A stretch of 37,972 nt of DNA from an uncultured Clostridia bacterium (GTDB taxonomy: Bacteria; Bacillota; Clostridia; Oscillospirales; CAG-272): assembly GCA_947631245.1 (NCBI GenBank), contig CANRKP010000019.1:1-37972 (forward strand). Direction: 5' to 3'. The notes beneath the pieces are model-generated. The model ran no database searches and was not told the DNA's origin. It saw nothing but the letters and a program-made list of their open reading frames with translations. Position numbers and translations under genes: made by a program. Shown here piece by piece: positions 1,597-13,128 of this stretch (position 1 is the stretch's first letter; the number at the start of each line of letters is the position of its first letter).

Positions 1597-2427
1597 TTAC
1601 GCACGCTCGACGGCGTCGGCGGTGTTTTCGAGCCACTCGTGCGGCGTCAGCTCGAGCTTGCCCATGTCGCACATTTTCGCAAGCTCGGGGCTTATCGGCA
1701 TCCTGTCGAGCAGCGTCAGCCCCGCTGACTTCGCGTACTCCTCCGTCCTGCCCTCTCCGAAAACGGGTATCTTCCGCCCGCAGTCGGGGCACTCAACGTA
1801 GCTCATGTTCTCCACGAGCCCGAGCACGGGGATATTCATCATCTTCGCCATGTTGACGGCCTTTGAGACTATCATTGAGACAAGCTCCTGCGGGCTCGTG
1901 ACGATAATTATTCCGTCGAGCTTCACGGACTGAAATATCGTCAGCGGGACGTCACCCGTCCCCGGAGGCATATCTATGAACATGATGTCCGTCTTGCCCC
2001 AGTTGACCTCTTCCCAAAACTGGAGCACCGCGCCCGAGATGACGGGTCCGCGCCATACGACGGGAGCCGCCTCTTCGTCGAGCAGCAGGTTCACGGACAT
2101 GACCTTTATGCCCGTCGCCGTTTCGGGCGGGATTATGTTCCCCTCCTCGCCCTCGACGCCGCCCGCCTTAAGTCCGAACGCGCGCGGTATAGAGGGACCC
2201 GTGATGTCTGCGTCGAGAATGGCGACGCTCTTGCCGCGCCGTCTCTCCGTCAGCGCCAACAGGGACGTGACCATACTCTTGCCGACGCCGCCCTTGCCGG
2301 AGACGACGGCGATGACCTTCCCTATGCTGCTGTTCTTGTTTGCCGGTCTTAAAAGATCCTCCGGCTCGGAATTTCTCGACGGGCAGTCGACCCCGCACGT
2401 CGAGCAGTCATGTGTGCAGTCCGCCAT
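1597..2427 (-). CDS. mrp: Mrp/NBP35-type Fe-S cluster carrier ATPase
   Basis: This is a P-loop ATPase of the MinD/ParA superfamily that is thought to bind and deliver Fe-S clusters to apoproteins in the cytoplasm. At 276 residues it is the usual length for bacterial Mrp. The deviant Walker A motif GKGGVGKS is at residues 44-51, with the switch-like DADITGPSIPR and the DMPPGTGD Walker B region further on. A C-terminal CPDC motif (Cys213 and Cys216) is the conserved cluster-binding pair. A short Cys-rich N-terminal extension (Cys4, 8, 11, 15) is common in clostridial and archaeal members. It is the last gene of the run, 30 nt after the degenerate P-type ATPase and just before a terminator. Confidence 0.93.
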   Translation of the reverse strand: MADCTHDCSTCGVDCPSRNSEPEDLLRPANKNSSIGKVIAVVSGKGGVGKSMVTSLLALTERRRGKSVAILDADITGPSIPRAFGLKAGGVEGEEGNIIPPETATGIKVMSVNLLLDEEAAPVVWRGPVISGAVLQFWEEVNWGKTDIMFIDMPPGTGDVPLTIFQSVKLDGIIIVTSPQELVSMIVSKAVNMAKMMNIPVLGLVENMSYVECPDCGRKIPVFGEGRTEEYAKSAGLTLLDRMPISPELAKMCDMGKLELTPHEWLENTADAVERA

Positions 2428-2457: not shown

Positions 2458-5217
2458 TCATTCCTTATTATTGTCCTTCTCCGTCCCTTTATTCCCGGTA
2501 CCGCCCGCGAATCTCCCGAGCTCAAACAGCGCGAGCAGCACGAGCGCCGGTATGACGGAGACGATGAGCGCCTTTGCGTCCGGCTGAATTATTCCGAAGA
2601 GCGCCGCCGCGCGTGACGAGACAGTCACCAAAACGACAGCCGCGGCAACGGCTGCGGCAAACAACAGCGCCGGGACAGACAGCTGCCGCTTCCGCGAGAA
2701 CGCGGGATATGACGAGCGGTATTCCCCGCATACGACGACGAGCGAGAGCAGCACCGACACGAATATCACGGACGGCACCGCCGCTTCCGCCCCGCCGTAA
2801 AGCAGCGGGACCGCGACTGTCACGGCAGCCCAAACAAAGCCGGGAAGCGCCGTCGGCAAAAGTCCCGAGAACGGATGCGAGAGCCGCTCGCAGACGTCCG
2901 TCACAAGCGAGAGCGAGGAGCGCTCCGGAGGCTCGCGCATCAGCACGAGCACCGCGAAAAAGTCATATATGAGGCCCCATAGGAGCACCTGCTCGGCGGG
3001 CAGCGCGCCCGTGCCGAGAATGACCGTCAGTATGACGGCGAAAATGCGCGCCGTCTGCGAGGTCAGAAGGAACCCCGTCGTATTCGATATATTCCCGTAT
3101 ATCCTGCGCGCGTGCGCGACCGCCGCCGCGACGGCGGCAAGCCCCTGCGCGCCGCCCCCCGCCTCGGGGAGCACGGCGTCCGCGCTCATCTTGAGCGTCA
3201 CCGGAGAGGACTGCGGCACAAATCCCGCGCCGACGGCTCCGAGCATCGAAAGCTCGCCCGTCATGTCGCCATCGGGTGAGGCGACGTAAGCGACGGCTCC
3301 GCCCGCCTTTCGTATCAGAGCGGCAAACGCCGCCTTTTCACGCGCGTCGAACCCGAGCAAAAGCCGCGCCTTTGACGCCGCCTCGGCGCGCTCCGCCTCC
3401 GTCATCGCGGCAAAATCGCGGGCGGTCAGTATGTCCCCGGGTCCCTGTATGATGCCCGCCCTGTCGGCGAGCTTCGCCGTCTCGGAGCCGCCGCCCGTCA
3501 AAACGACGCGTATCCCCGCCTCGCGGAGCGCCCGCGCCGCATCGTAAGCTCCGGGAGCCAACGGTCTATACAGTATTATAACGCCGACGAGCGTCATGTC
3601 CGTCTGCGTGAACGCAATGCGCTCGGGGGACGAGAACGGAGTTCTCTTGACGGTCACCGCGACTGCCGTGCCGCCCCGCCTTTCGTGATGCGAGACAAAG
3701 CCTCCGATGCCCGCCCTCACCGCGTCGGTCAGCGGCGAGTCTTTCCCGCCCGCGCGGACGAACGCGCACGACGGCAAAATCGCGTCTGCGCTCCCGCACG
3801 AAACCGACATATATCCGTCCTTGTCGTGCAAAAGCCTCGTGTCAAACGAAATTCCGTCCGCCGTCCCGTAAAGCGCCATCGGGAGCTCGCCCTCGGCGTA
3901 TGCCGCGCCGCCCGAGCCGTCGTCCGTCTCCTTTATGTAGTCGCGCAAGGTCTTCGCGGCGTCGGAGAAGACGTGGACGTCGGCGTCCTCGCCCGTCGTC
4001 ACCGCCTTCGCGTACCGCAAAAGCGCGTCGGGAATCGAAAATTCCTCTTTTTTCTTTTCTTTTTCTTCGGCTTCGGCAACGTCCCTCACCTCGCCGTCGA
4101 AGAAGTACGCGTCCGCCTCGACGCCGTCGACGCTCACGATGCCGTCCGCGTGCGTTATTATCGCGTCGAGCCCGTACAGCGTCTCTATCGCGCGCACGCC
4201 CCTGACCGAGACGCCCGCGCGCCGCTTCAGCGACATGATGCCGCGCGCCGCCGCGATATCTCCCGTCGCGGGGTAAAATTCGCACATCGACGATGCCGCG
4301 AGCGAGAGCCCGAGGAAAAACACCTCGTAAAGCCCGCGTCTGCCGACGAAAATGTCGAGCACGGTCACGAAAAACGCAAGCAGCGTCAGCGCGGCGCCCC
4401 ACCGCCTGCTGTATTTTTCGAGCAGCGCCGTCAACTTCAGCGTGCCGCCGCGCGCCGCCTTTAAATATCCTTTTGTCCTCACGGCGAGCGTGTCCGCTCC
4501 CGTGTGCGTCACGACGGCGACTCCCTCGCCCGAGGTGACGTAGCTTCCGGCGTAGACGGTGTTCGTCCTCGAAACGGGGGACGCCCCCGCCTCGGAGGAA
4601 AAGTCTTTCCCGACGGACCCGCCGACGCCCGTTATATGCTTTTCAAATACATAAAGCCCTCGCGAGCTTATGAGGCGGCAGTCCGCGGGGACGACGTCGC
4701 CCGCGCGCAGGCAGACGATGTCCCCCTTAACGACGCCGCGCGCGTCTATGCGCGAGACCTTCCCGTCCCGCCTGACGGCGGCGTCCGGCATGAAATCCCC
4801 CGACATGGGGCACGCCTCAAGATATCTCTTCGCCCTGATGTATGCCAGGGTGCGAAGGATTATGTTCACCGCGAGCACAGGTATCACGACGGCGTATGCC
4901 ACCCTCTCGTTGAACGCGTACGCCGTCGCCGCGGTCAGTATGAGAATAAGCAGCATCAGGTCGAACGCGGCGCCCCACGCGTATGCGAATACGGACTCGC
5001 GCCGCGCGTCGTATATCATGTTCGGACCGAAGCGCCGGCGCCGCCTTTTCGCCTCAGCCTTTTCAAGCCCCGCCTCGGGGTCGACGCCGAGCGAGCGGCA
5101 CACGCCCTCTACGGGCAGCTCTTTCGTTATCGGTACGCCGGAGGCGTCTTTTCCGCCTTTGACTTTGCCGCCGTTTCCCGCGCCGCCCGGCATCCTGCCC
5201 TGTTTTTTAACCGCCAT
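2458..5217 (-). CDS. P-type ATPase homologue lacking catalytic motifs
   Basis: This is a 919-aa membrane protein with the layout of a P2-type cation ATPase. Two predicted helices lie near 80-125, two near 265-320 and six near 714-902, with A, P and N domains between them. The catalytic motifs are lost. The DKTGT box is replaced by THADGIVS (about 355-362, His356 in place of the phosphorylated Asp). TGES reads TGVGGS (196-201), the KGAPE box of the N domain reads CGSAD (474-478), DPPR reads YRPL (550-553), TGD reads TGG (574-576) and GDGVND reads PDGDMT. The helix-4 PEGL motif is also absent. The frame is intact and flanking residues still align with the family, so this looks like a conserved pseudoenzyme and not a frameshift. 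No good ribosome binding site precedes the ATG. Its role is unknown. Confidence 0.8.
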   Translation of the reverse strand: MAVKKQGRMPGGAGNGGKVKGGKDASGVPITKELPVEGVCRSLGVDPEAGLEKAEAKRRRRRFGPNMIYDARRESVFAYAWGAAFDLMLLILILTAATAYAFNERVAYAVVIPVLAVNIILRTLAYIRAKRYLEACPMSGDFMPDAAVRRDGKVSRIDARGVVKGDIVCLRAGDVVPADCRLISSRGLYVFEKHITGVGGSVGKDFSSEAGASPVSRTNTVYAGSYVTSGEGVAVVTHTGADTLAVRTKGYLKAARGGTLKLTALLEKYSRRWGAALTLLAFFVTVLDIFVGRRGLYEVFFLGLSLAASSMCEFYPATGDIAAARGIMSLKRRAGVSVRGVRAIETLYGLDAIITHADGIVSVDGVEADAYFFDGEVRDVAEAEEKEKKKEEFSIPDALLRYAKAVTTGEDADVHVFSDAAKTLRDYIKETDDGSGGAAYAEGELPMALYGTADGISFDTRLLHDKDGYMSVSCGSADAILPSCAFVRAGGKDSPLTDAVRAGIGGFVSHHERRGGTAVAVTVKRTPFSSPERIAFTQTDMTLVGVIILYRPLAPGAYDAARALREAGIRVVLTGGGSETAKLADRAGIIQGPGDILTARDFAAMTEAERAEAASKARLLLGFDAREKAAFAALIRKAGGAVAYVASPDGDMTGELSMLGAVGAGFVPQSSPVTLKMSADAVLPEAGGGAQGLAAVAAAVAHARRIYGNISNTTGFLLTSQTARIFAVILTVILGTGALPAEQVLLWGLIYDFFAVLVLMREPPERSSLSLVTDVCERLSHPFSGLLPTALPGFVWAAVTVAVPLLYGGAEAAVPSVIFVSVLLSLVVVCGEYRSSYPAFSRKRQLSVPALLFAAAVAAAVVLVTVSSRAAALFGIIQPDAKALIVSVIPALVLLALFELGRFAGGTGNKGTEKDNNKE

Positions 5218-5285: not shown

Positions 5286-7613
5286 TCAGTGCAGACCGAA
5301 CGTCTCGACGGCGAGCCCGCCGCCCTCGGCGGCGTCGACGTCCGCCTCGAGTATCCTGTTCTCGCGCGCGTTTATTATCCGCGTCGCGAGCACGTCCTCT
5401 ATATTTCTTTCGATATAGCGGCGCATATTGCGCGCGCCGTACTTCGTCGAATACGACTCCTCCGCGATGACGGCGAGCGCCGCATCCGTCACGTTGAGCG
5501 TTATGCCGCGCTCGGTCAGAGCCTTTGAAAGGTCGCCCGTCATTATGCGCGCGATCCCGACAAAGTCCTCCTTCGAGAGCGGACGGAACGTCACTATCTC
5601 GTCGACGCGGTTCAGGAATTCGGGGCGCAGGAATTCCGAGAGCGCCCTTGTCGTCCTGTCCGCCGCCAGCTTCTCCGCCGTATCGGTGAATCCGGCGGGA
5701 TTTGACGAAAAGCTCGAGCCCGCGTTCGTCGTCATGACTATGACCGTATTCGTGAAGTCGACCTTTTTTCCGTGCGCGTCCGTTATCTCGCCGTCGTCGA
5801 GTATCTGCAGAAGGATGTTCATGACGTCGGGGTGCGCCTTCTCTATCTCGTCGAAGAGCACGACGGAATACGGGCGGCGGCGTATCTTTTCCGTCAGCTG
5901 CCCCGCCTCGTCGTAGCCGACGTAGCCCGGAGGCGAGCCTATGATGCGGGAAACCGAATGCTTCTCCATGAACTCTGACATATCGAGCCTTATGAGCGTC
6001 TCGGGAGAGGAGAAGAGGTCGTTCGCGAGCGTCTTGACGAGCTCCGTTTTGCCGACGCCCGTCGGTCCCGCGAAAATGAACGATACGGGCTTTCTCTTCG
6101 CCGTGACGCCTGCTCTGCCGCGCCGCACCGCCCTCGATACGGCGGACACCGCCTCATCCTGACCGACGATGCGTGCCCGCAGCCTCTCCTCGAGCCCCGC
6201 GAGCCTGTCGAATTCGTCCGCCTTTATGTCTGTGGCGGGAATGCCGGTCCATATCTCAATTACGAGCGCGAGGTCCGCGACCGTCATCTCGACGTGCCCG
6301 CACTCCTCCTCAAGCCCGACGAGCTCGTCGTCGAGCCTGTAAATGTCGCTCTTGAGCGCGGCGAGCTTCTCGTACCGCTCCTCCGTCTCCTCCTCGGTCG
6401 CGTTCTTGCCGCTCTCCTCGGAGCTCAGAGCCTCGTATTCACCCTTCACGCGGTCGAGCTCATCCTTTGCCTCGAGCCGCCTGTTTATCGCCGCCGTCGA
6501 GAGCGCGACGTGAGACGCCGCCTCGTCTATAAGGTCGATAGCCTTGTCGGGCAGGTATCTGTCTGTGATATACCGCTCCGAGAGCGTCACCGCGCGCTCG
6601 AGGATGTACTCCGGGATCCGTATCCCGTGGTACTCCTCGTAATAGTGCTTGACGCCGCGCAGTATCTCTATCGTCTCGCCGACCGTCGGCTCGTTGACCA
6701 TAACGGGCTGGAAGCGGCGCTCGAGCGCCGTGTCCTTCTCTATGTGCTTTCTGTACTCCGTAAGTGTCGTCGCGCCGATGACCTGTATCTCGCCGCGCGA
6801 GAGCGCTGGCTTCAGTATATTGGCGGCGTTCATGCTGCCCTCTGCGTCGCCCGCGCCGACGATGTTGTGAACCTCGTCTATGACGAGGATGACGTTGCCC
6901 GCCGCCTTGACCTCGTTCAAAAGCCCGAGCACGCGCGACTCGAACTGCCCTCTGAACTGCGTGCCCGCGACGAGAGCCGTCAGGTCGACGAGCTGCACCT
7001 CGCAGCCGCGCAGACGGTAGGGGACGTCCCCGTCAGAAATGCGCTGCGCCAAAGCCTCCGCGATCGCGGTCTTGCCGACGCCCGGCTCGCCTATGAGACA
7101 CGGATTGTTCTTCTGCCTGCGGCAGAGTATCTGTATCACGCGCGAGAGCTCGCGGTCGCGGCCCACTATCCTGTCAAGCCGTCCCGCGCCTGCCTCCGCC
7201 GTCAGATTTTTCGTGTATACGTCGAGATATTTGCGCTTCGGCGCGCGAGGCTGCTTTTCCTTCTTTTCATCGCGGCCCGCCTTTTCCTCGCGTCCGCCCG
7301 GCTTCGGCTGAGGCATGCCGCCCCGAAAGAGGCGCGGTATGTCTATCGGAGGCGCGCCGGCGTCCTCCGCCTCGTCGCCCCTGTCGGCGTCGTCGCCGCC
7401 GAGACCCGCCTCGAGCATGCCCTCCATATCGTTTGAAAGTCTGTCAACGTCGTCCTCCGAGATGCCCATGCGGGAGAGGATGTCGTCAACGGGCTTGAGC
7501 CCGAGCTCCTTCGCGCAGCGCAGGCAGAGCCCCTCGTTCTTCGTCTCCCCGTTTTCGATTTTGGTTATGAACACCACAGCGAGCCGCTTGTGGCATCTTG
7601 AACACATTTCCAT
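5286..7613 (-). CDS. clpE: ClpE/ClpC-type unfoldase with zinc finger
   Basis: This is an AAA+ protein unfoldase, expected to form hexamers and to feed ClpP or refold aggregates. An N-terminal C4 zinc finger (Cys4, 7, 30, 33) is the mark of ClpE; the Clp_N repeat domain of ClpC is absent. The first AAA+ module has Walker A GEPGVGKT (175-182) and Walker B VILVIDE. A coiled middle domain (about 375-440) follows. The second module has Walker A GPTGVGKT (516-523), LFDEIEKAH (586-594) and the conserved PPGYVGY loop. An AGF tripeptide near 640 sits where the ClpP-binding loop usually has [LIV]GF, so ClpP docking is likely but not assured. The 775-aa length suits ClpE. No ctsR or mcsAB lies nearby. 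Assignment to ClpE over ClpC rests on the zinc finger. Confidence 0.88.
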
Positions 7614-7644
7614 CTTTTCTGTGTAAAAACCTCTTTATATATTT

Positions 7645-8370
7645 TTACCGTTTTATTTTCGTCAAAAGGTCGGTCACCATCGACAGATGCAGCCCCGAGA
7701 ACAGCTTTGTCAGATACGTCCCGTCGATAAGGTCGGGTGGATACGCCGCGGGGTCGAACACGTTCAGGGTCGAGGCGAGATGTACGAACACATTCGCAAG
7801 CACGACCGCGTAGAACAGCGCGCTGACGATGCCCGCGGCAAGACCTAAGGTCTCGTTCATCTGCTTGAGCACCGGCAGCTCGAACGCGAGCCCGATCACT
7901 ACCGTCACGACCTTTAATATTATCGACACGGCGATAAAGATTATGATAAACGCGATGGCGGACGACGCGGTCTCCGATATCGGGCGCGCTATCGTCTCCG
8001 ACATATCCTTTATTATGTCTCCCCCCGCCGCCGTCGACGAGGAAAACCGCGATACGAACTCCGCCGTGTCTATGCCGAACCGCTCGAGTATCGCCGAGAG
8101 CTGCTCCGGCATCTTCTGGAACAGCGTCTCTGTCGTCCCGTGCACGGACAAAAGCGACGTCAAGGTCTCCGCTATCTCCGAGGACAGCGACTTGAGCACG
8201 AACGCGTCGCATATGAACGCGCCGAGATACGGCGTGAAGAACACCGCGGCGAAAAACGAAACTATCGACGAGGCGAGCCCCATAATGGACTTGACGAACC
8301 CCTGCTTCCATCCGCTTATTACCGTTATGACGATAACGGCAAGAATTACGATGTCGAAAAATGCTCCCAT
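7645..8370 (-). CDS. CvpA family membrane protein
   Basis: This 241-aa integral membrane protein resembles the CvpA (colicin V production) family. Two hydrophobic helices lie in the first 50 residues, including the typical SGWKQGFVKSIMG loop, and two more at about 125-150 and 165-190, with a large hydrophilic segment between the pairs. CvpA proteins affect envelope integrity and secretion in several bacteria, but their mechanism is unclear. A GGGAG ribosome binding site precedes the ATG. The gene lies 44 nt after the DUF5711-like gene and 31 nt before clpE. Confidence 0.75.
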   Translation of the reverse strand: MGAFFDIVILAVIVITVISGWKQGFVKSIMGLASSIVSFFAAVFFTPYLGAFICDAFVLKSLSSEIAETLTSLLSVHGTTETLFQKMPEQLSAILERFGIDTAEFVSRFSSSTAAGGDIIKDMSETIARPISETASSAIAFIIIFIAVSIILKVVTVVIGLAFELPVLKQMNETLGLAAGIVSALFYAVVLANVFVHLASTLNVFDPAAYPPDLIDGTYLTKLFSGLHLSMVTDLLTKIKR

Positions 8371-8414
8371 ATTATTTTCTCCCTTTTTATTTTTCGAAGG
8401 CGAAAAATTGCTCC

Positions 8415-9719
8415 TCAGCCGCCCTGTCCCGTCTCATTTTCACTCGCGCCGCCCGCCTCCGTATGGGACGGATGCGAAAAATCTATCGTGTAAGCCGAGG
8501 ACGAAAGACACAAAAGCGCCGTGCCGTCCCCCGTCGGTATTATGCGCTTCGCACCGACGCCGATCCCCGCCGTCCGCTCGGTGCCGTCCGAGGGATCTAT
8601 CATGACCGCGTGCCCCTGCGAAAGCAGGAACGCCTCGCCCGTGTCGGATACCGCCGCGTCGACGACCTTTTCCCCTATTACAGCATTGTAGCAAACGGAG
8701 GCTGCTGCGTCAAGTATGACGACGCTGTTTTCGGTTCCCGTCGCGTTTCTCGGAGAGGTAAGCATCACATATGCGTCCGACACGTCGTACATTCCGACGC
8801 CGCCGTGTATGTACGAACCCGAAAGCGTCCCGTCGCGACTGTAAATTCGGACCGACGCCGTCGTCAGCACAGAAAATCCGTCCCCCATCGTTTCGACCGC
8901 GAGCGGATATTCTCCCCCGATCCTGTCGCTGCCGGACTGGACGTCGGCGCCGACGTCGTAGAACGTCACGTCCGCGTAGTATTCGCCCTCGAGCACGCCG
9001 AACGACGTCACGGCGAGCCGTTTTCCGTCGTTTGATATCGCGGCGTCAGAGACGAAATCGCCTTTTGAATATTTCGTCCTGATCTCGAAATCTCCGCCGT
9101 AAAGGTACACCGTCGAGCGGTACTCGCGCCCGCCCGTCACGATGACGAAATCGCCGGAGTCCGCCATGTCGCAGGAGAGGATGGGATATTCGAGCGTCCC
9201 GCGGTACAGCTCCGAGAACGAGTTGCAGACCGAAAAGCCGTACCCGTCAAGCCCGCAGGTGAGGATGTATTTTTCCGATACGTCGACGAGCGGCGACTCA
9301 AACGACATCCCGACAGACAGCCCGACGGCGCCCGTCGGCGAGAAGAGCTTCTCCTCGCTGCCCGTCACATATAAAAGCTCGCCCTTATAAAGCCCGAAGC
9401 GCTGGATCGGCTCCGCCGAGTAAGACACGCCCGAAAACGCCGCCGCCCCGCCCGAGTTCACGTTTATGTCCCGCAGAAGATACATCATGTTGTCTATCGT
9501 TATCTCGCTGCTGAACGCCGTCATCATAAAAAGCGCGAAAAGGATGAACGCGGCGAGCGTCACGAGCCTTGCGAGCCTGTATTTTTTCGCGACAGAAAGG
9601 TAGTATTCGTTTTTGCCGCTTTCGCCGTCGTCCGCGCGCGGCAGCTCGACAGGCACGTCGGAAACGTCCCGTCTCCGTCCGAGCGAGACCTCGGAGGTGC
9701 GTCTCTTTTTCAGCTTCAT
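8415..9719 (-). CDS. DUF5711-like membrane-anchored beta-propeller protein
   Basis: This 434-aa protein has a basic, polar N-terminal segment of about 48 residues, one transmembrane helix (about 51-70) and a long extracytoplasmic domain. That domain is made of repeated beta-rich blades with recurring motifs such as DVSEKYILTCGLDGYGFSV and AAISNDGKRLAVTSFG, which suggest a WD40- or YVTN-like propeller. The pattern resembles the DUF5711 family of Clostridia, whose function is unknown. A GGAGG site precedes the ATG. It lies between truA and the cvpA-like gene, and the pairing with another envelope protein suggests a surface or envelope role. The family name comes from memory of the pattern. Confidence 0.65.
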   Translation of the reverse strand: MKLKKRRTSEVSLGRRRDVSDVPVELPRADDGESGKNEYYLSVAKKYRLARLVTLAAFILFALFMMTAFSSEITIDNMMYLLRDINVNSGGAAAFSGVSYSAEPIQRFGLYKGELLYVTGSEEKLFSPTGAVGLSVGMSFESPLVDVSEKYILTCGLDGYGFSVCNSFSELYRGTLEYPILSCDMADSGDFVIVTGGREYRSTVYLYGGDFEIRTKYSKGDFVSDAAISNDGKRLAVTSFGVLEGEYYADVTFYDVGADVQSGSDRIGGEYPLAVETMGDGFSVLTTASVRIYSRDGTLSGSYIHGGVGMYDVSDAYVMLTSPRNATGTENSVVILDAAASVCYNAVIGEKVVDAAVSDTGEAFLLSQGHAVMIDPSDGTERTAGIGVGAKRIIPTGDGTALLCLSSSAYTIDFSHPSHTEAGGASENETGQGG

Positions 9720-9746
9720 GTTCTCCCCGCCTCCTTTTCTTTATAT

Positions 9747-10508
9747 TCAGTATTCCACCCGACAGAGGTAGAGCCCCGAGGGCGGCAGCGTCGCCCCGGC
9801 TCGCGCCCTTTGCCGCGAGCGGATTATTTCGTCTATGTCGCATGCCGTGAGCTTTCCCCTCGCGGCGTCGAGCGCGGTGCCCGCCATCGTCCTTACCATT
9901 TTATATAAAAATCCGTCGGCGGTAACGGAAAAGACGATGAGCTCGCCCCGCCTTGCGACGCGGCATTCGGTTACGTTTCTCACGGTGTCCGTCACCTTCG
10001 AGCCGCTCGCCATGAACGCGGAGAAATCCCGCCTGCCCTCCATTTTGCGCGCCGCCTCGTCCATCGCCGCGAGCTCCGCGTCGGAGAGGGGCTGTATGCG
10101 GAGCGCGAACCCCTCGTAAAACGGGGAGCGCACCGGCGCATCGTAAAACAGATATTCGTAAGTCTTTGACTTCACGTCGTACCGAGGGTGAAACCCGTCC
10201 GGCACGCACTCGGCGGAAAGAACCGATATATCCTCCGGCAGACGCGCGTTGAGCGCGCGCGGGACAGAGTCCGCGGAGATGCGGCATGTGATATCGCCGC
10301 CATCGTCGTTTTCGAATGCGACGGCACACGAATATCCGCGCGCGTGCACCCCGCTGTCGGTACGGCTGCAGCCGGTGACGAGGCACCGCGTGCCGTAAAG
10401 CTCCGAGCATACCTTTGTCATCACGGACTGGACGCTTTTCGCGTTGTCCTGCGCCTGCCAGCCGCAGTAGCGCCTGCCGTCGTAAGCAAGTGTGAGCCGC
10501 AGCTTCAT
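9747..10508 (-). CDS. truA: tRNA pseudouridine(38-40) synthase TruA
   Basis: TruA converts uridines at positions 38, 39 and 40 of the tRNA anticodon stem-loop to pseudouridine. The protein is 253 aa, the normal size. It opens with the typical LTLAYDGRRYCGWQ segment, and the catalytic Asp is Asp51 in the GCSRTDSGVHA motif. A second conserved block, FLYKMVRTMAGTALDAARGK, forms part of the active site. Its ATG overlaps the ecfT stop by 4 nt, so it is probably translated by coupling. An ecfA1-ecfA2-ecfT-truA order is common in Bacillota. Confidence 0.96.
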   Translation of the reverse strand: MKLRLTLAYDGRRYCGWQAQDNAKSVQSVMTKVCSELYGTRCLVTGCSRTDSGVHARGYSCAVAFENDDGGDITCRISADSVPRALNARLPEDISVLSAECVPDGFHPRYDVKSKTYEYLFYDAPVRSPFYEGFALRIQPLSDAELAAMDEAARKMEGRRDFSAFMASGSKVTDTVRNVTECRVARRGELIVFSVTADGFLYKMVRTMAGTALDAARGKLTACDIDEIIRSRQRARAGATLPPSGLYLCRVEY

Positions 10509-11329
10509 AGCTTGAACGCGAACAGCGGGAAAAATACGTTCACCAAAACGACCGCCGCCGCAAGCAGCGCAAATACGGCGAGGAATACGACGTCAACTCT
10601 GCCGCAGCGCAAAACCTTCATCCTTGTTCTGCCCTCGCCGCCTCTGTAGCAGCGGCACTCCATCGCCACCGCGAGCTCGTCAGCCCGCCTGAACGCCGAG
10701 ACGAAAAGCGGTATCATCACGGGCAGAAGCGCCTTCGCGCGGGAGATGAGCCCGCCCGAGGAAAAGTCCGCGCCCCTCGCCTTCTGCGCGTTCATCACCT
10801 TGTCCGTCTCCTCAACGAGCGTCGGTATAAAGCGGAGCGCTATCGTCATCATCATCGAAAACTCGTGCACCGGCACCCGCAGCTTTGAAAGCGGGGACAA
10901 AAGTGACTCGAGCCCGTCCGTCAGCGAGAGCGGGGACGTCGTATACGTCAGAAACAGTCCGGAGCCGAGCATGAGGAAGCAGAGCCTCACCGAGACGAGC
11001 ACCGCGTTTATGACGCCCTTTTCGTATATGTGAATGAAACCGAACGAGAAGAGCTGCCGCCCTCCCGTCGTCATGAGCAGGTTTATGACCGTTGTAAATA
11101 TTATGATGAACAGTATCGGCTTCATGCCGCGCGCGTATACGGAGAGCGGGATCCGGCTCAGAAGCAGCAGCGCAAACGTGAATACCGCGAGCAGGAGGAA
11201 CGACGCGGCGGAGTTCACGACGAAGATGACGGTTATAAACGCTATAAGGGCGACGAGCTTGACGCGCGGGTCGAGCCTGTGCATCACGGAGTCGCCGGGA
11301 AAATACTGCCCGAGCGCTATGTCATGCAT
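10505..11329 (-). CDS. ecfT: ECF transporter transmembrane protein EcfT
   Basis: EcfT is the shared membrane scaffold of energy-coupling factor transporters and links the two ATPases to substrate-binding S components for vitamins or metals. The 274-aa protein has the N-terminal signature GDSVMHRLDPRVKL, several membrane helices, and the coupling-helix region with the ARG box (KARGADF) and the later FRRADELAVAMECRCY segment. It follows ecfA2 by 34 nt and overlaps truA. No S component is encoded in the window, so this is probably a shared group II module serving S components elsewhere. Confidence 0.95.
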   Translation of the reverse strand: MHDIALGQYFPGDSVMHRLDPRVKLVALIAFITVIFVVNSAASFLLLAVFTFALLLLSRIPLSVYARGMKPILFIIIFTTVINLLMTTGGRQLFSFGFIHIYEKGVINAVLVSVRLCFLMLGSGLFLTYTTSPLSLTDGLESLLSPLSKLRVPVHEFSMMMTIALRFIPTLVEETDKVMNAQKARGADFSSGGLISRAKALLPVMIPLFVSAFRRADELAVAMECRCYRGGEGRTRMKVLRCGRVDVVFLAVFALLAAAVVLVNVFFPLFAFKL

Positions 11330-11363
11330 CGCTGTTCACCCCCTTCTTTTTTGCCGCGGCAAA

Positions 11364-12224
11364 TCACCGCTCCCGCCCCTTTATGAGCTTCGCTAAAGCC
11401 TCCGCCACCCCGCGGACCGTGTATATGTCGTCCCCGAGCGGGACGCCGAGCGACGAGAGCTCGTATGCTATATCCGTTATCAGAGGAACGCCGAGCCCTA
11501 TCGCGCGCAGCTCGTCCCGCCTTGCGAATATCTCCTCGCGCGTGCCGTACATCGCGAGCCCGCCGTCCGCGAGCACCGCTATCCTGTCACAGTACGCCGC
11601 CATGTCCTCCATGCTGTGCGAGACAATTACGACGGACGCGCCCGTCGCCTCGGAATATTCCCTGATTCCCGAAAGGATCGAGGCGCGCCCCTTCGGGTCG
11701 AGCCCCGCCGCCGGCTCGTCGAGCACGAGCACGTCGGGTCTCATCGCCATGACGCCCGCGACCGCGGCGCGCCGCTTCTGTCCTCCCGACAGCTCAAACG
11801 GCGATTTGTCGAGCAGTTCAAAGCCGACGCCCGCGAACCTCGCCGCCTCGCGCACACGCTCGTCCGTCTCTTCTTCCGAGAGCCCCATGTTGTGCGGACC
11901 GAACGCGATATCGGCGCGGACCGTCTCGTCGAAGAGCTGATACTCCGGATACTGCATCACAAGTCCGACGCGGAACCTCACCGAGCGCAGCTTCTTTTTG
12001 TCCGCCCAAATGTCCTCCCCGTCAAGCAGGACCCTGCCGAAGTCGGGCTTTATGAGCCCGTTCAGCATTTCGACGAGCGTCGACTTGCCGGAGCCCGTAT
12101 GCCCTATGATGCCCGTTATTTTTCCTTCTTCTATCGTCAGCGTCAGATCCTTCACGGCGTGCGCCTCGAACGGCGTGCCCCGCCCGTATGTGTAGCTGAC
12201 GCCCTCGAGCCTTATCTCAGCCAT
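11364..12224 (-). CDS. ecfA2: ECF transporter ATPase EcfA2
   Basis: This is one of the two ABC ATPases of the ECF module. It has Walker A GHTGSGKST (41-49 from the ATG), the Q-loop VMQYPEYQLF, the signature LSGGQKRR and Walker B VLVLDEPAAGLDP. The frame can be opened at a GTG at 12233, but the ATG at 12224 sits 8 nt after a GGAGG site and is the better start. That start overlaps the last codons of ecfA1 by 8 nt, which implies translational coupling and equal dosage of the two subunits. Confidence 0.95.
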   Translation of the reverse strand: MAEIRLEGVSYTYGRGTPFEAHAVKDLTLTIEEGKITGIIGHTGSGKSTLVEMLNGLIKPDFGRVLLDGEDIWADKKKLRSVRFRVGLVMQYPEYQLFDETVRADIAFGPHNMGLSEEETDERVREAARFAGVGFELLDKSPFELSGGQKRRAAVAGVMAMRPDVLVLDEPAAGLDPKGRASILSGIREYSEATGASVVIVSHSMEDMAAYCDRIAVLADGGLAMYGTREEIFARRDELRAIGLGVPLITDIAYELSSLGVPLGDDIYTVRGVAEALAKLIKGRER

Positions 12225-13128
12225 TCGCGTCACCTCCGCGCAGAGGCAGCGCCCCGAGCCGCAAAAGCTCGTCTCTTATGTGCCGCGCGCACGCGCCGGC
12301 GTCCGGCGTTTCGGGCAGTTGTCTTACCCCGAGCCCGCGCAGCTCGTATAAGAGCGCCGTCGACTGCGGCACGTCAAGGCTGACGGCGCGCAGCTCCTCG
12401 GCGCGCGAGAATATCTCTCCCGGCTTTCCGTCAAGGCAGACGCGCCCTTCGGAAAAGACGACGACGCGGTCGGCGAGCGCCGCCTCCTCCATCTCGTGCG
12501 TGATGTGTATTATCGTAATTCCGCGCTCGCGGTTCAGCTTGAGTATCGTGTCCATTACCTCGCGCCTGCCGGACGGGTCGAGCATAGACGTCGACTCGTC
12601 GAATATTATGCACTCCGGCAGCATCGCTATTATGCCCGCGACGGCGACGCGCTGCTTCTGCCCGCCCGAAAGATGCGACGGGGACGAGAGCGCGTATTTT
12701 CTCATTCCGACGGCGTCGAGCGCGCCGTCGACGCGCGCCCTTATCTCCTCCGGCGGTATGCCGAGGTTTTCGGGTCCGAACGCGACGTCCTCCTCGACGA
12801 CGGAGGCGACTATCTGATTGTCGGGGTTCTGATGCACCATCCCGATCCTGCGCCTCACCTCGAACACGGTGTCCTCGTCGGGCTCCTCGTGGGAGCTGAC
12901 GAGCTTCCCGTCGACGTATATCTCCCCCTCGTCGGGGATGAGTATCATATTTAGTAGCTTCGCGAACGTACTCTTCCCGCTGCCGTTGTGACCGAGGATC
13001 GCGGTGAACTCGCCGCGCTCAAACGAAAGCGAGATGCCGTCGAGCGCCGTATGGCGCACGCCGTCCGCGTCCTCATACGCGAATTTGAGTCCGCGCGTCT
13101 CTATAAACGCGCTCACGGCAGCCACCAT
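12217..13128 (-). CDS. ecfA1: ECF transporter ATPase EcfA1
   Basis: This is the partner ABC ATPase of the ECF module. It has Walker A GHNGSGKST (46-54), the Q-loop MVHQNPDNQIV, the signature LSGGQKQR and the Walker B region CIIFDESTSMLDP, where the usual EAT is EST. The ATG at 13128 lies inside the end of the preceding methyltransferase gene and has no clear ribosome binding site. A GTG at 13116 overlaps that gene's TGA stop (GTGA) and has GGTGG 5 nt upstream, so the true start may be 13116, removing four residues. Confidence 0.94.
   Translation of the reverse strand: MVAAVSAFIETRGLKFAYEDADGVRHTALDGISLSFERGEFTAILGHNGSGKSTFAKLLNMILIPDEGEIYVDGKLVSSHEEPDEDTVFEVRRRIGMVHQNPDNQIVASVVEEDVAFGPENLGIPPEEIRARVDGALDAVGMRKYALSSPSHLSGGQKQRVAVAGIIAMLPECIIFDESTSMLDPSGRREVMDTILKLNRERGITIIHITHEMEEAALADRVVVFSEGRVCLDGKPGEIFSRAEELRAVSLDVPQSTALLYELRGLGVRQLPETPDAGACARHIRDELLRLGALPLRGGDANG

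Follow-up and report, generated by a model that had tools for sequence, protein, structure and literature searches.

P-type ATPases are textbook enzymes that are defined by a phosphorylated aspartate. Among the papers found, human TMEM94/ERMA stood out as the only prominent case of a P-type protein whose standing as a P-type ATPase is in doubt, and the literature on it is split: in one study, TMEM94 showed neither ATPase activity nor a conformational cycle, and Mg2+ was not visible (PMC12134183), whereas another group reports ATP-dependent Mg2+ uptake by ERMA that requires the phospho-Asp (PMC13322241). The open-access literature yielded no bacterial P-type pseudo-ATPase, with TMEM94/ERMA as the only relevant lead; most subscription papers lay outside this search, and absence is not proven by it. 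Pseudoenzymes can act as scaffolds (PMC10211241), and the rhomboid YqgP assists the AAA protease FtsH as an adaptor, a function that does not depend on the catalytic activity of YqgP (PMC7231995).

The protein analyzed here is encoded in a stretch of 37,972 nucleotides from an uncultured Clostridia bacterium (the window). Its best sequence and structural matches are LMCA1 and the PMR1/SPCA group (TIGR01522), with which it shares length, domain order and fold; unlike them, it has none of the catalytic motifs, and an Arg in M5 and a Gly in M6 replace E771 and N796 (SERCA numbering). It resembles TMEM94/ERMA, by published description and not by sequence relation, in having a P-type fold without TGES and GDGVND, but TMEM94 is a eukaryotic protein of the ER that keeps the phospho-Asp (DKQGI). 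The window protein has no Asp at the position equivalent to that of DKQGI and no PILP in M4 (TMEM94 motifs from PMC13322241 and PMC12134183). The nearest precedent is this contested human protein, and the present family lacks even its phospho-Asp.

The window protein and its catalytic motifs

The coding sequence of the P-type pseudo-ATPase (P0001, 919 aa) occupies positions 2458 to 5217 of the minus strand with no stop and was assigned from the open reading frame, Pfam, the closest solved sequence and an AlphaFold2 model. Pfam matches above the respective cut-offs were E1-E2_ATPase (3.5e-28), Cation_ATPase_N (3.9e-14) and Cation_ATPase_C (2.3e-7), and the HAD hydrolase domain stayed under its own (21.3 vs 26.4 bits). 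The nearest NCBIfam model was the PMR1-type Ca2+-ATPase TIGR01522 (1.1e-40; 139 bits vs a cut-off of 798), and the closest solved sequence was Listeria LMCA1 (lmo0841; E 2.8e-43, residues 48-766 aligned). AlphaFold2 with a 33-member alignment gave a mean pLDDT of 84.5 and a pTM of 0.82. The best VIA-align match of this model was SPCA1 (7yai; Z 38.4, 808 residues aligned, rmsd 12.4 Å, 18% identity), followed by MgtA, LMCA1 and SERCA. A distant member, 19% identical to the window protein and from another family (f16, see below), was modeled with a pLDDT of 84.7 and matched SPCA1 (7yaj) with Z 40.7 and an rmsd of 9.1 Å over 826 aligned residues. The whole P2 fold, consisting of the membrane domain and the A, N and P domains, is predicted to persist, with the caveat that the abundance of P-type structures in the training of AlphaFold may have influenced the models; the large rmsd probably reflects a different domain arrangement. 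By fold and sequence family, the window protein is a full-length P2-type ATPase homologue, and the full P2-type shape proposed in the initial annotation was confirmed by the Pfam domains, the model and the SPCA1 match. The first ~30 residues (5128-5217, minus strand) form an extra N-terminal tail of low model confidence, which is missing from the relatives in the genus except the closest sister.

The catalytic motifs were compared by aligning the window protein with active pumps from its genus. His356 (codon 4150-4152, minus strand, as are all coordinates below) stands where DKTGT has its phosphorylated Asp, and the motif reads HADGI. In the A domain, TGES has become TGV- (T196-G197-V198, 4624-4632), and in the N domain KGA has become CGS (C474-G475-S476, 3790-3798). 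DPPR reads RPLA, TGD reads GG-, and the region aligned with GDGVND reads ASPDGD, the motif being lost between A646 and G654 (3256-3282). The statement in the initial annotation that every motif had been replaced holds for these six; it does not hold for the Glu of PEGL, which is kept as E313, and the M6 Asp (D752) is kept too.

Family-wide residue counts were taken from an alignment of 94 full-length members, drawn from a single order of uncultured Clostridia and three of its families: 76 from the family of the window (f1) and nine each from f19 and f16. Every one of these members keeps at most four of nine catalytic residues. The phospho-Asp is lost in 90/94 and retained in four, which carry DREGA, DSSKY, DNSRY or DDSRY instead of DKTGT. 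No replacement acid is conserved at this site; Pro is the commonest residue there in f1 (36/76), and the Glu of TGES is Glu in only 5/94 members. The THADG form of the replacement, the conservation of which had been raised at the outset, turned out to be confined to the window genome and its 97% identical sister. A restored DKTGT was looked for among relatives and was found in none at this gene, the DKTGT proteins of the genus forming a separate active lineage. Since the residues that form and hydrolyze the aspartyl phosphate are absent, a pump cycle should be impossible, as judged from the alignment and the predicted structure.

Three f16 members (L210, L211 and L325) account for the DSSKY, DNSRY and DDSRY forms, with the Asp kept and the remaining motif gone. 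These look like stepwise erosion, a possible intermediate in the loss.

Distribution, origin and selection

A match to the window protein was present in all 11 sampled genomes of the genus, with the same losses wherever a full-length close relative was available, and many more members were found across 146 genomes of f1. Independent contigs of uncultured Clostridia metagenome-assembled genomes, from animal gut and other sources, also carry members, and the relatives, close to a hundred in all, come from gut and digester bacteria. The back-translation search used a within-genus alignment, the 33-member alignment being too diverse. The f19 and f16 members were added by examining, in more genomes, which gene follows clpE directly. 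Among 61 f1 regions behind clpE without a previously known adjacent match, 30 had the gene, 26 did not and five ended with the contig; f1 genomes outside these regions had mostly been recognized earlier by an adjacent match. About three quarters of f1 genomes are estimated to carry the pseudo-ATPase. In 17 other families (f2 to f24), unrelated genes occupy the place downstream of clpE, and a P-type ATPase homologue was seen in none of their 22 regions, one of which was cut by the contig end. A profile search of a class-wide sample returned only motif-intact pumps among its best 29 other matches, with no pseudo-ATPase outside the order among them.

Some longer members (L034:451-4245, L044:1447-5136, L027:973-4278 and L050:1477-4689) extend ~150-350 aa past the ATPase C-terminal domain. 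Domain fusions hinting at function were not seen, the extensions of the longer members having no Pfam domain. One genome (G021) has two clpE copies on separate contigs (C123 and C75), each followed by a P-type homologue match, which suggests that the clpE-pseudo-ATPase pair has been duplicated.

A single branch divides the pseudo-ATPases from the active sequences, with a support of 100 in both FastTree (131 sequences) and IQ-TREE (50 sequences; SH-aLRT = 100). Several independent origins are unneeded, one change sufficing on the two trees, which are unrooted. The active P2-type pumps form a separate lineage that co-occurs in several of the same genomes. With the window protein as query (E 1e-3), no second P2-type ATPase was found in the window's own genome; an active one (L016/L020) is present in the 97% sister (G008). 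Either the window's genome has lost such a pump or its assembly, at 95% completeness, does not include it.

Selection was assessed as dN/dS by the Nei-Gojobori method with our own script, the values being rough for some pairs in which dS approaches or exceeds 1. The window gene and its 97% relative gave 0.121, and seven further pairs gave 0.073, 0.100, 0.047, 0.079, 0.074, 0.111 and 0.298, so that 7/8 pairs lie between 0.05 and 0.12 and one at 0.30. Two pairs of active pumps gave similar values (0.125 and 0.077). For ClpE of the same genomes, the values were 0.024-0.059, with one pair saturated. Among the domains, the A domain has the lowest entropy and is the best conserved, and the P domain is the most relaxed relative to active pumps (entropy ratio 2.4-2.7).

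Because dN/dS is, in all but one pair, as low as that of the active pumps, the gene is judged to be maintained, and the sequences indicate that the family is almost certainly a conserved, selected P-type pseudoenzyme. The pseudoenzyme interpretation of the initial annotation is in this way supported by relatives, dN/dS and independent assemblies. Its view of the open 919-codon frame as evidence against recent decay was borne out by the independent genomes and by dN/dS, and the neutral dN/dS that would have spoken for decay was looked for; instead, the comparison with the nearest relative gave 0.12, and the eight pairs ranged over 0.05-0.30. A sequencing error as the source of the altered motifs is excluded, since the 97% identical gene (L002) comes from an independent assembly and dozens of other genomes agree.

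The ClpE-like neighbor and a candidate role

Directly upstream of the pseudo-ATPase, at a distance of 68 bp, lies a gene for a ClpE-like AAA+ unfoldase with an N-terminal Cys-rich domain (5286-7613). Its Pfam matches (AAA, AAA_2, AAA_lid_9 and ClpB_D2-small) correspond to two AAA modules and a D2-small domain. A GF-containing loop of the ClpP-binding kind ([x]GF after a TTNAG segment), a putative ClpP contact, is present in 52/52 ClpE proteins of pseudo-ATPase loci. The pseudo-ATPase gene follows clpE directly on the same strand in 54/56 loci, the other two being without a clpE call in the fetched piece. The gap has a median of 17 bp, several pairs overlap by 4 bp, and the same gene order is repeated in further genomes of the three families.

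Further upstream in the same operon are genes for a CvpA-like membrane protein (Colicin_V, 7645-8370; 47/56 loci), a DUF5711 protein (8415-9719; 47/56), a TruA-type tRNA pseudouridine synthase (9747-10508; 32/56) and an EcfT/CbiQ-type transporter membrane subunit (10505-11329; 22/56), all assigned by Pfam. Genes for PgsA and ABC ATPases are also found upstream in places on the same strand. The operon of clpE-like, cvpA, DUF5711, truA, ecfT and two ABC ATPase genes (5286-13128) is syntenic over many genera. The pseudo-ATPase stands at its end, and the genes downstream vary; the Mrp/NUBPL iron-sulfur carrier P-loop NTPase that follows in the window (1597-2427; Pfam) is conserved in only 16/56 loci. 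Of the operon placement between a ClpE-like unfoldase and Mrp that had first been described, the ClpE side is therefore conserved and the Mrp side is not.

Taken as an old and selected pseudo-ATPase family in which the P2 fold would be kept and the aspartyl-phosphate chemistry gone, the protein is probably co-expressed with the ClpE-like unfoldase and may co-assemble with it. Its likeliest role is that of a scaffold, receptor or substrate adaptor embedded in the membrane, which would bring the unfoldase, perhaps together with ClpP, to the membrane itself or to particular clients within it. We infer this role of a ClpE-linked membrane scaffold or adaptor from gene order only, give it a probability of about 0.4 and favor it over a pump or channel. 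The proposed mode is that of the rhomboid YqgP and of pseudoproteases such as Derlins, in which a polytopic membrane enzyme fold serves an AAA+ machine without catalysis of its own (PMC7231995); their fold is unrelated, and the AAA+ interaction has been shown there, whereas here it is read from the order of genes. Weighing against the adaptor role, clpE is widespread in the order in genomes that do not carry the pseudo-ATPase gene, and the operon also holds the CvpA, DUF5711, TruA and ECF genes; the pairing with ClpE may be just one of several.

The pseudo-ATPase could instead work alone or with CvpA, DUF5711 and the ECF transporter in envelope biology, its place beside clpE owing to the age of the operon only. 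This explanation is a good deal less likely than the adaptor role. It is consistent with the synteny of the upstream genes (22-47 of the 56 loci) and with the behavior of clpE, which is present throughout the order in genomes without the pseudo-ATPase gene; at least five changes in the presence of the pseudo-ATPase map onto the ClpE tree, with clpE itself retained. Because clpE persists where the gene is absent, the unfoldase does not need the pseudo-ATPase everywhere. ClpE residues were compared with the presence of the gene over only five independent contrasts. Against this explanation, the gene stays directly behind clpE in three families, with ends that often overlap or nearly touch, while the genes downstream change.

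The membrane ion site and alternative functions

The membrane site of the window protein is remodeled in sequence and not fully replaced. The M4 Glu (SERCA E309) is kept as Glu313 (codon 4279-4281) and is Glu in 61/76 f1 members, and the M6 Asp (SERCA D800) is kept as Asp752 (2962-2964) and is Asp in 70/76. At the position of SERCA E771 in M5, which is Glu in most active pumps, the window protein has Arg724 (3046-3048), as do 68/76 f1 members; the Glu-Arg-Asp trio of M4, M5 and M6 occurs together in 56/76. The M6 position of N796 is Gly in 68/76 f1 members (Gly748 in the window protein) and another small residue in the rest, and the M5 position of N768 is Gln in 49/76. The cation-site acids of f1, M4 Glu and M6 Asp, are thus kept beside a fixed Arg in M5 and a fixed Gly in M6. 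The other two families no longer have the M6 acid: f19 has Asn or Cys in its place and f16 a small or hydrophobic residue, and in both the ion site appears to have been neutralized.

Basic residues near the corresponding site are also used by proton pumps and KdpB. Located between M4 Glu and M6 Asp, the M5 Arg of f1 would occupy the old cation site as a counter-ion supplied by the protein itself and probably holds the membrane domain in one state. A more specific form of the adaptor role, in which a calcium-type pump gave rise to a membrane receptor or adaptor dedicated to an AAA+ unfoldase, the intramembrane Arg locking the old ion site, is tentative and somewhat doubtful.

The kept acids also bear on a sensory function, in which M4 Glu and M6 Asp would bind a cation or sense pH, and a change in the A and N domains would regulate the ClpE-like unfoldase or another membrane protein. 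Their frequency in f1 and the strong conservation of the A domain are in its favor, but the Arg at the E771 position and the Gly or other small residue that occupies the N796 position in 76/76 f1 members speak against it. The M6 acid is, moreover, absent in two of the three families, and sensing shared by all of them would need other residues. An ion or ligand sensor is accordingly unlikely, about as much so as the envelope role.

A passive channel, carrier or lipid-binding protein, in which the membrane domain passes a substrate without ATP, is improbable. The membrane domain is kept and under selection, which is in its favor, but its ion site has a fixed Arg or is neutral, and the large cytosolic N and P domains are kept though a channel has no need of them. 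Among the roles suggested in the initial annotation (sensor, scaffold or channel), the channel is hence disfavored, given the Arg fixed inside the membrane and the missing M6 acid of f19 and f16; this leaves the sensor and the scaffold, of which the scaffold or adaptor is preferred.

Slightly less probable still is a hidden enzyme that catalyzes with migrated residues, as claimed for ERMA/TMEM94. ERMA is without TGES and GDGVND and yet has reported ATP-dependent Mg2+ uptake (PMC13322241), and 63/76 f1 members have D or E at the second Asp of GDGVND. However, ERMA retains the phospho-Asp, and the D427N mutant of ERMA is inactive (PMC13322241), whereas the Asp is gone here in nearly all members with no conserved substitute acid; the ERMA activity is itself disputed (PMC12134183). 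A decaying pseudogene would fit the loss of the catalytic motifs and the absence of the gene behind clpE in several related lineages, but it is refuted by the selection test (dN/dS mostly 0.05-0.12), has against it the long open frames in roughly a hundred genomes and the conservation of new residues such as Arg724 and Gly748, and deserves almost no weight.

Pseudoenzymes are a known kind of protein; in this superfamily, no bacterial examples were found in the open-access literature searched. With its scores of members, an undoubted loss of the motifs and ongoing selection, this bacterial clade would offer a clean case of what a P-type fold can do without ATP hydrolysis, and automatic annotation would mislabel the family as "cation-translocating P-type ATPase". 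The constant ClpE neighbor makes a specific function testable. If the adaptor role of the pseudo-ATPase is true, an ion-pump fold would have been recruited into a system for the quality control of membrane proteins or for regulation.
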